42,385 nucleotides of DNA. Origin: Thermus igniterrae ATCC 700962 (GTDB taxonomy: Bacteria > Deinococcota > Deinococci > Deinococcales > Thermaceae). The stretch lies in contig NZ_AQWU01000057.1 in assembly GCF_000376265.1 (NCBI RefSeq), positions 1 to 42,385 of the forward strand, in the 5' to 3' direction. Of this stretch, positions 750-40,734 are shown piece by piece. The notes beneath the pieces are model-generated. The model had not been told where the DNA came from. It saw only the letters and a list, made by a program, of their open reading frames with translations, and made no database searches. How positions within the stretch are numbered: position 1 is the stretch's first letter; the number at the start of each line of letters is the position of its first letter. The translations under genes and the position numbers were made by a program.

Positions 750-1685
750 CTATACTACCGGGTTTGGAGGTTCACGCCCTTCCAGCACGGCCAGCAGGTT
801 TTCCACCGCCATCTCGGCCATGCGCTCCCGGGTGCGCCTGCCCGCGGAGCCCATGTGGGGGGTGATGACGGCGTTGGGGCGCCGGTAGAGGGGGTGGTCC
901 GGGGGCAGGGGCTCGGGGTCGGTCACGTCCAGGCCGGCCCCGAAGAGGTGGCCCTCCAGGGCCTCCACCAGGGCCAGGGTGTCCACCAGGCCCCCCCGGG
1001 CGGTGTTGAGGAGGATGGCCCCCCGTTTCATGGCCCAAAGCCTTTCCCGGTTCATCAGCCGGTGGGTCTCGGGGGTGAGGGGGGCGTGGAGGGAGACGAT
1101 GTCCGCGGTCTCCAGGAGTTCTTCCAGGGAAAGCCTGGGATAGGGGAGGGGTTTGGGCTGGCGGCTGGTGTAGGCCACCCGCAGGCCGAAGGCCTCGGCC
1201 CGCTGGGCCACCGCCTGGCCAATCCTGCCCATGCCCACGATGCCCAGGGTGAGGCCCTCCAGGTCCAGCCCCAGGAGGAGCTCCGGGTGCCAGGCCTGCC
1301 ACTGCCCCTGCCGGGCGTAGTCCACCCCCTCCACCACCCGCCGGGCCACCGCCAGGAGGAGGGCCAGGGTGAGGTCGGCGGTGGCGGCGGTGAGGGCCTC
1401 GGGGGTGTGGGTGACGCGGATGCCCCGGGCCCGGGCGGCCTCCAGGTCCACGTGGTCCACCCCCACGCTGTAGCAGGCGATGACCCTAAGGGTTTTGGCC
1501 CGCTCCATCACCTGGGCGTCTATGCGGTCCTCCACCGTGGGGATGAGGCCCACCGCCCCTTCCACCTTCCTGAGGAGTTCCTCCCGGGGGAGGAAGAGGC
1601 CCTGGTGGACCACCACCTCGAGGCCCCGTTCCCGCAGGCGGTCCAGGGCCTTTCCGGGCAGGGTGCGGGTGACGAGGACCTTCAT
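750..1685 (-). CDS. D-2-hydroxyacid dehydrogenase (glyoxylate/hydroxypyruvate reductase-like)
   Basis: This 311-residue NAD(P)-dependent dehydrogenase should reduce a 2-keto acid such as glyoxylate or hydroxypyruvate to the D-2-hydroxy acid. The Rossmann motif GIVGMGRIG lies near residues 149-157. The catalytic set is present: Arg in NTARGG, Glu in the DPEP region, and His in ITPHMGS. Length is normal. Its ATG overlaps the TGA of the pmbA-like gene (ATGA), so it is probably translated by coupling as the third gene of a tldD-pmbA operon. A link to peptide processing is not obvious. The exact substrate is inferred from family resemblance only; phosphoglycerate dehydrogenase is less likely because no C-terminal ACT domain is present. 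Confidence 0.88.
   Translation of the reverse strand: MKVLVTRTLPGKALDRLRERGLEVVVHQGLFLPREELLRKVEGAVGLIPTVEDRIDAQVMERAKTLRVIACYSVGVDHVDLEAARARGIRVTHTPEALTAATADLTLALLLAVARRVVEGVDYARQGQWQAWHPELLLGLDLEGLTLGIVGMGRIGQAVAQRAEAFGLRVAYTSRQPKPLPYPRLSLEELLETADIVSLHAPLTPETHRLMNRERLWAMKRGAILLNTARGGLVDTLALVEALEGHLFGAGLDVTDPEPLPPDHPLYRRPNAVITPHMGSAGRRTRERMAEMAVENLLAVLEGREPPNPVV
752..757 (-). promoter_or_regulatory. -10 box (TAGTAT), TauE/SafE permease
   Basis: Seven bases before the ATG at 744, no ribosome site: leaderless start. It lies in the 3' end of the dehydrogenase gene. No clear -35 hexamer. Confidence 0.6.
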
Positions 1686-2995
1686 GCCCCGGCGAAGGAG
1701 AGCTCCGCCACCGCCACCGTGGGGCTACCGATGGCGGCGGCGGGCATGAGGTGCCACGTGAGGTCATCCCCCACCGCCTCCACCGCCTGGAGCAGGTCCA
1801 GGAGGTTACCACTCACGGCGAAGTTCTCCACCGCGTACTGCACCTTGCCTTCCGCCACCCAAAGCCCCAGGGCCTGCAGGGAAAAGTCCAGGCTCACGGG
1901 GTTGGCCCCCGCGTGGAGGCCCATGAACTCGGTGAGGAGGACCCCCTCCTCCAGCCTCAGGTTCCCCACGGGCCGCAGGTAGAGGTTGCTGGGGGCCACG
2001 TCCAGGGTGCCCTGGTAGCGGCGGAAGGCATGGCCGGTGTTGGCCTGGCCCAGGGCCCGGGCGCTTTCCGTGTTGTGGAGGAAGGTGCGGAAGACCCCCT
2101 CCTCAATGACCAGCGTGGGGCGGGCGGGGGTGCCCTCCGCGTCAAAGGGGCGGGAGAGGAGGCCCCGCTCCAGGGTGGGGTCGTCAATGAGGGTGATGAG
2201 CCTCGAGGCCACCTGCTCCCCCAGCCTGCCCAGAAGGCGGCTTTTCCCCTCCATGGCGTTTTTCCCGGAGAGGGCTTGGGCGAAGACCATGAGGAGGCTG
2301 GCCATGGCCCTGGGCTCCAGGTAGGCCCGGTAGCGGCCCGTGCGCAGGGGCTTTGCGCCCAGGAGCCTGGCGGTCTTTTCCCTTAGCTCCAAGGCGGTGC
2401 GCCCGGGCTCCAGGGTGTGGAACTCCTTGGCGGGGAGGAAGTCCCAGCCCTGCTTGAGGCTTCCTCCCTCCCCCATGACCAGGCTTCCCCCCAAGGCGGT
2501 AAGCCCCGTGCGGAAGGCGCCTTCCGCCCCCCGGGTGCTGGCCAGGCTCACCCGCACCTCCCGCTCGGTGTAGGTGGCCATCATCACCGCCCTGGTACGG
2601 GGGTCTTCCCGCAGGCCCGCCTCCAGGGCCAAGGCGGCCGCCTTCTTGGCCTCCAGGGGGGCGGAAAGCCCCTCCCCCAGGAGGTCGTGGGCCCCTAGGG
2701 GCTGGCCCTCGGGCAGGCTTCCCATCTTGCCGGAAAGGAGGGCGTTTTCCCGGGCCTCCGCCAGGGCCCAGTCCAGGGCCGCCGGGGAGAGCTCCTCGGT
2801 GTAGGCGTAGCCCACCCGTCCCTCCGCCACCACCCGCAGGCCCAGGCCCCCCTGCCGGGCCTCCTTGATCTCCTCCAGGGCCCCGTTCCGGGCTCGCAGG
2901 GAAAGCTCCCGTTCCTCCTGGAAGAGGACCTCGGCCTCGAGGCCCAGTTCCCGGGCCCGCCGCAACACGTAGCGCTTGGCTTCCTCTAGGGTCAT
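1682..2995 (-). CDS. TldE/PmbA-family metalloprotease subunit
   Basis: This 437-residue protein is the PmbA/TldE partner of the TldD/E heterodimeric metallopeptidase, which degrades unfolded peptides and matures some peptide natural products. The match is over the whole length, including the LTEFMGLHAGANPVSLDFSLQ region and the C-terminal VSGNLLDLLQAVEAVGDDL stretch typical of PmbA. It lacks the HExxxH metal motif, as expected for the non-catalytic partner. An in-frame extension back to 3100 exists, but it would overlap tldD and is Gly/Pro-rich shadow sequence. The ATG at 2995, 17 bases after the tldD stop, is therefore chosen. The gene is second in a tldD-pmbA-dehydrogenase operon. Confidence 0.88.
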   Translation of the reverse strand: MTLEEAKRYVLRRARELGLEAEVLFQEERELSLRARNGALEEIKEARQGGLGLRVVAEGRVGYAYTEELSPAALDWALAEARENALLSGKMGSLPEGQPLGAHDLLGEGLSAPLEAKKAAALALEAGLREDPRTRAVMMATYTEREVRVSLASTRGAEGAFRTGLTALGGSLVMGEGGSLKQGWDFLPAKEFHTLEPGRTALELREKTARLLGAKPLRTGRYRAYLEPRAMASLLMVFAQALSGKNAMEGKSRLLGRLGEQVASRLITLIDDPTLERGLLSRPFDAEGTPARPTLVIEEGVFRTFLHNTESARALGQANTGHAFRRYQGTLDVAPSNLYLRPVGNLRLEEGVLLTEFMGLHAGANPVSLDFSLQALGLWVAEGKVQYAVENFAVSGNLLDLLQAVEAVGDDLTWHLMPAAAIGSPTVAVAELSFAGA

Positions 2996-3012
2996 GGTCC
3001 GTCCCCCTGGGG

Positions 3013-38860: not shown

Positions 38861-38871
38861 GAGGAGGGCGC

Positions 38872-40734
38872 ATGGAGAAGGTTTTCTACATCACCACCCC
38901 CATCTACTACGTGAACGCCGAACCCCACCTGGGCCACGCCTATTCCACGGTGGTGGCCGACTTCCTGGCCCGGTGGCACCGCCTGGACGGCTACCGAACC
39001 TTTTTCCTCACGGGCACGGACGAGCACGGGGAGACGGTCTACCGCGCGGCGGAGCGGGCGGGTGAGGACCCCAAGGCCTTCGTGGACCGGGTTTCCGAGC
39101 GCTTCCGGCGGGCCTGGGAGCTTTTGGGCATCGCCTACGACGACTTCATCCGCACCACGGAGGAGCGCCACCGGAAGGTGGTGCAGGAGGTCTTGAAGCG
39201 GGTCTACGAGGCCGGGGACATCTACTACGGGGAGTACGAGGGGCTTTACTGCGTCTCCTGCGAACGCTTCTACACGGAGAAGGAGCTTGTGGACGGGCTT
39301 TGCCCCATCCACGCCCGGCCGGTGGAGCGGCGCAAGGAGGGCAACTACTTCTTCCGCATGGAGAAGTACCGGGAGTGGCTCATTGACTACCTGCAGACCC
39401 ACCCCGACCTCATCCGCCCCGAGGGCTACCGCAACGAGGTGCTCTCCATGCTCTCCGAGCCCATCGGCGACCTTTCCATCTCCCGTCCTAAGGCCCGGGT
39501 GCCCTGGGGCATCCCCTTGCCCTGGGACGAGGCCCATGTGACCTACGTGTGGTTTGATGCCCTCCTCAACTACGTTTCCGCCCTGGGGTATCCCGAGGGG
39601 GAGGCCTTCCAGACCTTCTGGCCCCACGCCTGGCACCTGATCGGCAAGGACATCCTTAAGCCCCACGCGGTCTTCTGGCCCACCATGCTCAAGGCGGCGG
39701 GGATTCCCATGTACCGCCACCTGAACGTGGGGGGGTTTCTCCTGGGGCCCGATGGCCGCAAGATGAGCAAGACCTTGGGGAACGTGGTGGACCCCTTCAC
39801 CCTGGCGGAGCGGTATGGCCGGGACGCGGTGCGCTACTACCTCCTGAGGGAAATCCCCTACGGCCAGGACACCCCGGTGAGCGAGGAGGCCTTGAGGGCC
39901 CGCTACGAGGCCGACCTGGCCGATGACCTGGGGAACCTGGTGCAGCGCACCCGGGCCATGCTCTTCCGCTTTGCCGAGGGGCGCATCCCCGAGCCCGTGG
40001 CCGGGGAGGAGCTGGAGCAGGGCACGGGGCTTGCCGGGCGGCTCAGGCCCCTGGTGCGGGAACTGCGGTTCCACGTGGCCCTCGAGGAGGCCATGGCCTA
40101 CGTGAAGGCCCTCAACCGCTACATCAACGAGAAAAAGCCCTGGGAGCTCCACAAGCGGAACCCCAAGGAGGCCCAGGCGGTGCTCTACCGGGTGGTGGAG
40201 GGGTTGCGCATCGCCTCCATCCTCCTCACCCCCGCCATGCCGGGGAAGATGGCCGAGCTCCGCCGGGCCCTGGGCCTGAAGGAGGAGGTGCGCCTGGAGG
40301 AGGCGGAACGCTGGGGGCTGGCCGAGCCCGTCCCCGTTCCCGCCGAGGCCCCGGTGCTCTTCCCCAAAGAGGAGAAGGGAGGCAAGGTGGAAAAAGAAGT
40401 TGGGCAGGACCGCCTGATCGGGATTGAGGACTTCGCCAAGGTGGAACTCCGGGTGGCCGAGGTGGTGGCGGCCCAAAAGCACCCCAACGCCGACAAGCTC
40501 CTGGTGCTCCGGCTTTCCCTGGGGAGCGAGGAACGCACGGTGGTCTCGGGGATTGCCCAGTGGTACCGCCCCGAGGACCTGGTGGGGAAGCGGGTGGTCC
40601 TGGTGGCCAACCTCAAGCCCGCCAGGCTCCGGGGGGTGGAGAGCCAGGGCATGATCCTGGCGGCCTCGGAGGGGGACCGGCTGGCCCTGGTCACGGTGGA
40701 GGGGGAGATTCCTCCCGGGGCCTTGGTGAAGTAG
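38872..40734 (+). CDS. metG: Methionyl-tRNA synthetase
   Basis: This 620-residue class I synthetase charges tRNA-Met. HIGH is HLGH at 19-22 and KMSKS is KMSKT near 297. The zinc knuckle (CVSC...CPIH, near 127-147) has three Cys and one His, the Thermus pattern. The anticodon-binding helices follow, and a C-terminal EMAP/Trbp111-like tRNA-binding domain starts at [12 protein letters not shown]. Length is nearly that of the T. thermophilus enzyme. A GAGGAGGG ribosome site precedes the ATG. Upstream lies a terminator-like hairpin inside the leader, downstream a strong terminator. Confidence 0.97.

Follow-up and report, generated by a model that had tools for sequence, protein, structure and literature searches.

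Highly iterated palindromes (HIPs), namely HIP1 (GCGATCGC) and the alternate cyanobacterial HIPs, are GC-rich palindromic words that occur genome-wide and mostly within genes (Elhai 2015, PMC4390886). According to that paper, every HIP genome encodes a methylase whose predicted site is contained in the word, and HIP density is "generally" 1000-2000/Mb, a tendency and not a strict limit. The uptake signal sequence (USS) of Haemophilus and the DNA uptake sequence (DUS) of Neisseria are short words with many genic copies and a reported evenness; PMC1939737 cites Karlin et al. for significant USS evenness but itself rates the USS as less even than a compaction role requires. Moreover, CTCGAG is an orphan methylase site in Nocardia, where the sites cluster by dnaA (PMC4752239). 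Here, we discuss the octamer CCTCGAGG in a stretch of Thermus igniterrae ATCC 700962 DNA (the window; 42,385 nucleotides, G+C 68.7%), in the genome to which the window belongs, and in other Deinococcota.

The octamer resembles the cyanobacterial HIPs in being a mostly genic, GC-rich palindrome present genome-wide far over expectation, and Thermus has a predicted methylase for part of the word (M.TaqI type, TCGA). The likeness to HIP1 claimed in a preliminary description of the window is supported. Unlike HIP1, the word is found in another phylum and is a different one, its inner tetramer is avoided elsewhere in Thermus, it is rarer (~640/Mb in the T. igniterrae genome versus 1000-2000/Mb), and its even spacing is shown below. 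In some relatives, the core CTCGAG reaches 6,000-7,700/Mb (at least 6,000/Mb in groups f3 and g7), with no shared methylase found; the methylases found in other lineages have no assigned specificity. The Haemophilus and Neisseria uptake signals have a similar density but are non-palindromic. As with Dam/GATC-type orphan sites, the M.TaqI-type methylase often lacks a partner, the TaqI nuclease being absent from the matches in 19 of the 27 Thermus genomes. In contrast to the clustered Nocardia sites, the Thermus octamers are evenly spread. In comparison with the TaqI/TthHB8I restriction-modification systems (TthHB8I being specific for TCGA), the methylase orthologue is present and TCGA is purged in Thermus, yet the nuclease is not found in most genomes and the octamer is spared. 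In the open-access literature searched, nothing relevant to the word or the phenomenon in Thermus came up. The reading we tentatively favour is that CCTCGAGG is a HIP-class element kept in Thermus by selection on the DNA word and its spacing, probably marked by N6-methyladenine, with other TCGA lost to TaqI-type restriction.

Codon-level evidence for TCGA loss and octamer preference

Exact counting gives 25 copies of CCTCGAGG and 30 TCGA sites in the window, in agreement with the preliminary description. All of its octamer starts were correct but one (Table 1), and of the five TCGA sites outside the octamer (near 12298, 15788, 16220, 24539, and 27666), it had placed three correctly and two, those at 16220 and 27666, one base off. 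The window is a contig (C57) of a 2.226 Mb assembly (74 contigs, 99.98% complete) that holds 1424 copies of CCTCGAGG versus 427 of the backwards control GGAGCTCC; in each of 27 Thermus genomes, the octamer occurs 1231-2158 times versus 200-587 for the controls. In 442 kb of the T. igniterrae genome, 284 octamers are observed versus 27-32 expected under Markov models of orders 1-3, an approximately tenfold excess, and TCGA is observed 340 times versus 790 (order 1) or 498 (order 2), with 284 of the 340 inside the octamer. The corresponding numbers in 840 kb are 535 octamers and 653 TCGA. Single-letter deviants in the 442 kb number 8 (CCTCGAGC), 4 (CCTCGAGT), and 4 (GCTCGAGG) for the outer letters and 6 (CATCGAGG) for an inner one, counts that are confounded by TCGA avoidance; in HIPs, such deviants are concentrated at the outer letters. 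When a Markov model of maximal order is built from the window only, the expected number of octamers is 25.0 and the signal is masked.

Markov excess counts in Thermus blend two opposing forces. Compared with a synonymous shuffle in which every called gene of the 442 kb retains its protein sequence and its codon counts, TCGA is seen 302 times versus 1701 expected (0.18), CTCGAG 272 times versus 504, and CCTCGAGG 256 times versus 164 (1.56). Hence, TCGA is purged, with an exemption for the octamer. As only 1.56-fold remains for the octamer, Leu-Glu codon use supplies a large part of the raw excess, and most of the tenfold Markov excess comes from Leu-Glu codons together with TCGA loss. The enrichment stated in the preliminary description, which had expected one to two copies in the window, is therefore too high.

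In the same 442 kb, Leu-Glu is written CTC-GAG at 236 of 751 sites with C before and G after (C_G contexts; 31%) versus 13 of 1006 in other contexts (1.3%). Of the 5584 Leu codons preceding GC, GG, or GT codons, 362 are CTC (6.5%, the baseline). The octamer in T. igniterrae is more than exempt, since CTC-GAG use in C_G contexts exceeds the CTC baseline, and the word preference drops steeply where the outer C and G are not both present. Phe is written TTC at 2% before GA versus 71% before GC.

Frames were assigned with in-house gene calls, the strict genes being those with a score >100 and a length of at least 600 bp. Octamers outside the Leu-Glu frame of strict genes number 19 versus 1.7 expected in T. 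igniterrae, 6 versus 0.55 in a second Thermus genome (G030), 9 versus 0.65 in pTT27 of T. thermophilus HB8 (250 kb), and 3 versus 0.05 in nine named Thermus loci (183 kb), i.e., 37 versus 2.95 over the four sets. In the Leu-Glu frame, the corresponding counts are 322 versus 225.6, 140 versus 47.4, 121 versus 86.8, and 102 versus 62.3. The suggestion that selection acts at the DNA level is backed by the off-frame excess, the flank-dependent codon choice, and the spacing discussed below.

Other words are also scarce in the 442 kb of T. igniterrae. CGCG is found 924 times versus 3035 by synonymous shuffle, GCGC, GTAC, and GATC likewise lie well below expectation, and GTCGAC is found 0 times versus 91.

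Spacing and conservation of the octamer

Thermus carries about one octamer per 1.1-1.6 kb, and the spacing of the copies is more even than if Leu-Glu sites had been picked at random from those available. The comparison is with 500 permutations that reshuffle which available Leu-Glu C_G sites carry the motif, with all remaining motifs fixed. For strict genes, the coefficient of variation (CV) of the spacing is 0.785 versus 0.965±0.033 in 840 kb of T. igniterrae (0/500 as low), 0.806 versus 0.897±0.031 in 400 kb of G030 (p 0.002), 0.956 versus 1.081±0.039 in pTT27 (p 0.002), and 0.838 versus 1.035±0.064 in the named loci (0/500); with all called genes, the T. igniterrae comparison becomes 0.785 versus 1.04±0.04. 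The dispersion index, taken over 10 kb bins, concurs in three of the four sets (0/500, p 0.002, and p 0.012), and control CTC codons are spaced no more evenly than chance.

Moreover, codon choice depends on the distance to the next copy. Among the T. igniterrae sites, 61 of 350 are written as the motif when a neighbour motif lies within 300 bp versus 92 of 178 when none lies within 1200 bp, a trend that is similar for a neighbour in the same or in a different gene. In a logistic fit, the distance effect is 0.48 (bootstrap standard deviation [SD] 0.08) per SD of log distance, alongside gene CTC usage and length. Permutation within genes gives p 0.037 and 0/1000 in the named loci. This dependence is predicted by minimum-density selection and not by local word bias or restriction exemption, which argues for an element of the HIP class that acts in cis over 1-2 kb. 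The idea that off-frame motifs fill gaps between Leu-Glu motifs was dropped as a probable missed-gene artefact; for strict off-frame motifs in T. igniterrae (12 of 535 motifs), the mean distance is 801 versus 648 at random (p 0.17), and the three other sets show no effect.

The preliminary description had called for a check of position conservation between species. At aligned Leu-Glu C_G sites in 11 other Thermus/Thermaceae loci, window motifs are retained at 48 of 59, whereas CTC codons used as controls are retained at 38 of 83. When every ordered pair is counted, the figures are 478 of 685 and 606 of 1816; such pairs share ancestry and are not independent. The window FtsK matches nine long Thermus-titled loci at 77-82% identity and a short contig of Thermus sp. 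JCM 17653 at 95%. Most window copies lie in the Leu-Glu frame, and the in-house gene calls agree with the frames reported earlier for the copies at 2201 and 25557 (Table 1).

Table 1. Copies of the octamer in the window.
Feature	Coordinates	Strand	Context
CCTCGAGG	1616..1623	.	Leu-Glu frame of gene 750-1685 (-)
CCTCGAGG	2201..2208	.	other frame, Ala-Ser-Arg
CCTCGAGG	2935..2942	.	
CCTCGAGG	4224..4231	.	
CCTCGAGG	4622..4629	.	frame hinges on which overlapping open reading frame (ORF) is real
CCTCGAGG	4916..4923	.	not within called genes
CCTCGAGG	7817..7824	.	not within called genes
CCTCGAGG	8867..8874	.	
CCTCGAGG	11996..12003	.	inside SecA gene
CCTCGAGG	13539..13546	.	
CCTCGAGG	17074..17081	.	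inside FtsK gene
CCTCGAGG	18115..18122	.	inside FtsK gene
CCTCGAGG	19534..19541	.	inside FtsK gene
CCTCGAGG	20389..20396	.	frame hinges on which overlapping ORF is real
CCTCGAGG	21538..21545	.	
CCTCGAGG	21784..21791	.	start given as 21785 in the preliminary description
CCTCGAGG	25557..25564	.	other frame, Pro-Arg-Gly, CGA codon
CCTCGAGG	25799..25806	.	
CCTCGAGG	27190..27197	.	
CCTCGAGG	29724..29731	.	inside NAD-dependent DNA ligase gene
CCTCGAGG	33294..33301	.	
CCTCGAGG	34157..34164	.	
CCTCGAGG	35739..35746	.	
CCTCGAGG	38067..38074	.	
CCTCGAGG	40080..40087	.	inside methionyl-tRNA synthetase-like gene

The core word, phages, and methylases in the Deinococcota

The element is not peculiar to Thermus, since most of the other Deinococcota genomes searched also over-use its core, CTCGAG (111 genomes, 27 Thermus and 84 non-Thermus). 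CTCGAG exceeds the reversed word GAGCTC in 81 of the 84 non-Thermus genomes (exceptions G053, G068, and G070), slightly so in e.g. G066 and G069, and four f3 genomes (4.2-4.6 Mb) carry 26,619-28,178 copies versus 4-15 controls, i.e., up to about one per 160 bp. GAGCTC is avoided in places, and the synonymous shuffle is therefore the better yardstick. By this measure, CTCGAG is raised in eight of nine sampled relatives (1.9- to 14-fold), with 2.7x in G001, 2.6x in G002, 3.0x in G016, 4.2x in G050, 9.4x in G055, 14x in G054 (17.8 kb), 2.0x in G058, and 1.9x in G083; the value for 28 of 69 non-Thermaceae loci from the FtsK scan is 0.79x. The octamer form is also not unique to Thermus, as CCTCGAGG holds 6195 of 13552 CTCGAG in G050 and 1994 of 3244 in G049, which is of another genus and has TaqI_C. 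The CTCGAG core is older than the Thermus octamer. TCGA in the eight CTCGAG-enriched relatives is at 1.15-1.94 of expectation and not avoided; Thermus differs from these relatives in that TCGA is purged nearly everywhere but in CCTCGAGG.

The abundance of the core word in one relative (G055) is such that Leu-Glu doubles its expected dipeptide frequency (2.22x, compared with 1.73x in G050, 1.10x in T. igniterrae, and 1.0x in G053). GAGCTC is nearly gone in G054-G057 (4-15 per genome; 0 versus 27-28 by shuffle in 140 kb of G055 called genes; L084, L205-L210). G055 has also nearly purged GGCC (4 versus 346) and CCGG (34 versus 282), while it carries CTCGAG about every 160 bp.

Phages of Thermus vary in their TCGA content. 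The numbers observed and expected are 29 versus 166 in P23-45 (50 kb; CCTCGAGG 0), 22 versus 101 in TSP4 (40 kb; CCTCGAGG 6), 4 versus 44 in IN93 (19.6 kb, L306; all four within CCTCGAGG), and 175 versus 143 in phiFa (40 kb; CCTCGAGG 3). TCGA avoidance in three of the four fits restriction.

Candidate-protein searches covered methylases and the TaqI nuclease. The T. igniterrae M.TaqI orthologue (L066, 1933-3132; PDB 1aqj, E 4e-167) has the TaqI_C domain, and in this genome and in G025 its gene sits between what we take to be gyrB-like and kbl-like genes. TaqI_C is found in 27/27 Thermus genomes and in 44 of the 111 Deinococcota. The nuclease is found in 8/27 Thermus genomes and adjoins the methylase by coordinates in all eight (in G028 as a fragment, with the remainder on another contig); the search gave 0 matches in the draft T. 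igniterrae assembly (74 contigs, 99.98% complete). G058 carries an M.TaqI-type gene (L070), yet its 60 kb sample shows no avoidance of TCGA.

T. igniterrae also has a TTHA0409 orthologue (2zie, E 8e-158), and the recognition site of TTHA0409 is listed as "Unknown" in PMC10073500. This methylase (L226:1670-2539) has copies (L227-L232; two in further Thermus, one in g5, and three in f4) that are 64-87% identical to it. A DPPF-motif beta-class methylase (L233-L237, L243, L245), with six g2/g3/g4 copies 67-91% identical to that of G001, is only distantly related to the Thermus TTHA0409 type. Matches among the 111 genomes were found in 81 for PF07669, 29 for PF00145, and 78 for PF01555, and the PF01555 core subfamilies, judged from the proteins fetched, are unrelated between Thermus plus f4 and g2-g4. 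An M.Eco57I_C-type methylase (L072-L080) is strongly matched in some f5 genomes and in 14 of the 18 from g4; L072 matches in 39 of the 111 genomes, strongly only in g4 and f5. Distant homologues occur on Pseudomonadota and Actinomycetota plasmids, where three downstream neighbours gave no Pfam family at E 0.01, and CTCGAG specificity for L072 could not be shown from these neighbours. No CTCGAG methylase was identified in the Deinococcota methylase searches. As to other proteins, the word does not match the Thermus RuvC preference, (A/T)TT/(G/C) (PMC9601230), and a role as a RuvC resolution site was dropped. The D. radiodurans RuvC preference, (G/C)TC/(G/C), fits CTCG, but the MP1 stretch of that organism has no CTCGAG excess (see below).

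Weighing the explanations

In the favoured reading, selection on the DNA word and its spacing maintains the octamer, and TaqI-type restriction would purge TCGA outside it, an ascription made because the M.TaqI-type domain is in every Thermus searched and the nuclease in some. Given this methylase domain in all Thermus searched, the octamer adenines are probably N6-methylated by the M.TaqI-type enzyme. A putative dimeric protein would read the octamer as part of some form of upkeep that operates along the whole chromosome and extends ~1-2 kb from a site; repair or strand marking, as has been proposed for cyanobacterial HIP1, would be the likeliest.

Several points weigh against this reading. 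The frame and spacing tests rest on in-house gene calls, and what we say of function, methylation state, and a putative reader is inferred. For the named loci, the index of dispersion does not reach significance (p 0.26). When permutation is confined to single genes, two statistics in T. igniterrae and G030 have p 0.007-0.019 but the third only ~0.08, and pTT27 shows no effect. Over the first 50 kb of this replicon, Leu-Glu in C_G contexts is CTC-GAG at 29 of 92 sites, not above the share of CTC (0.35) where another codon beginning with G follows; the octamer count there is 31 versus 28.5 by shuffle (1.09x). Among relatives, the CV of CTCGAG spacing is no evener than chance in G001 and G050, yet dispersion is lower (p 0.027 and 0.013); evenness of the CV is present in G002 and G055, and G053 leans the opposite way. 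CTCGAG shows no excess over the synonymous shuffle in G053 (0.64x) or in positions 1-50000 of D. radiodurans MP1, a plasmid stretch (0.46x), and the word is therefore dispensable within the phylum. The octamers in three of the four phages (TSP4, IN93, and phiFa) mean that the word is not limited to host replicons. In addition, a conserved methylase as common driver was rejected, as none of the five methylase searches tracks CTCGAG over the 111 genomes.

A wider version, which we consider possible but doubtful, is that CTCGAG is an ancient Deinococcota chromosome-wide mark with a putative protein reader, the counterpart of GATC in enteric bacteria. In Thermus it would have been lengthened to CCTCGAGG and come under the M.TaqI-type methylase, mostly an orphan, and the removal of the remaining TCGA sites would serve to confine the methyl group almost wholly to the evenly spaced octamers. 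Their role would lie in repair, in strand discrimination, or in handling the chromosome on a scale of ~1-2 kb.

A molecular-drive model has been put forward for HIP sites (Elhai, PMC4390886), in which a mismatch-repair or conversion bias keeps generating the word without benefit to the cell. The over-representation of Leu-Glu where CTCGAG is extreme speaks for it, as do the neighbours of CTCGAG in G055, where inner transversions are scarce (CTGGAG 0.44, CTAGAG 0.19, CACGAG 0.13, and CGCGAG 0.23) and inner transitions are near expectation (CCCGAG 0.93 and CTTGAG 0.88); two of the scarce neighbours are partly low in G053 too (CACGAG 0.42 and CGCGAG 0.49). However, a purely local word bias is blind to the distance of the next copy, and codon choice in Thermus is distance-dependent. 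We regard drive as unlikely.

It is also rather unlikely that restriction history alone accounts for the data, with TaqI-like nucleases purging TCGA and CCTCGAGG being an exempt context (an extra methylase or poor cutting) that rides on common Leu-Glu codons. The TaqI/TthHB8I-type history inferred in the preliminary description is supported by the distribution of TaqI_C and the nuclease and by the TCGA-poor phages (phiFa excepted), and the depth of the TCGA depletion, the Phe codon usage, the four IN93 sites, and the exemption-level octamer count in the first 50 kb of pTT27 all agree with it. It would account for the loss of TCGA, but does not by itself predict the spacing or the off-frame excess. 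Under simple exemption, CTC in C_G contexts of T. igniterrae should fall to the 6.5% baseline, yet it stands at 35% of GAG-followed sites. Moreover, the sampled relatives over-use CTCGAG without avoiding TCGA, and G058 combines an M.TaqI-type gene with unavoided TCGA.

An uptake signal that marks self DNA for natural transformation, like USS/DUS, would also predict even spacing through one copy per fragment, and Thermus is highly competent for transformation. Its DNA uptake, however, is described as non-specific, the word is palindromic, the f3 densities are far beyond uptake needs, and phage stretches carry the octamer, so we consider this role improbable, notwithstanding a density near that of the Haemophilus USS (1471 copies, as quoted in PMC1939737). 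Finally, an artefact at the protein level, i.e., frequent Leu-Glu pairs and biased codons, would supply the 164 of 256 octamers that the shuffle yields, but it is contradicted by the flank dependence (31% versus 1.3%), the off-frame excess, the even spacing, and the 9- to 14-fold CTCGAG excess over synonymous shuffles in G055 and G054, and is very improbable.

The purpose of highly iterated palindromes is an open question, and we have met its discussion only for cyanobacteria. Selection on the word and its spacing, the reading preferred here, would give these palindromes a counterpart in Thermus, a thermophile that is tractable and naturally transformable and in which the structure of a methylase for the core of the word is known. 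As even spacing separates selection for site density from a purely local mutation bias, the question becomes testable.

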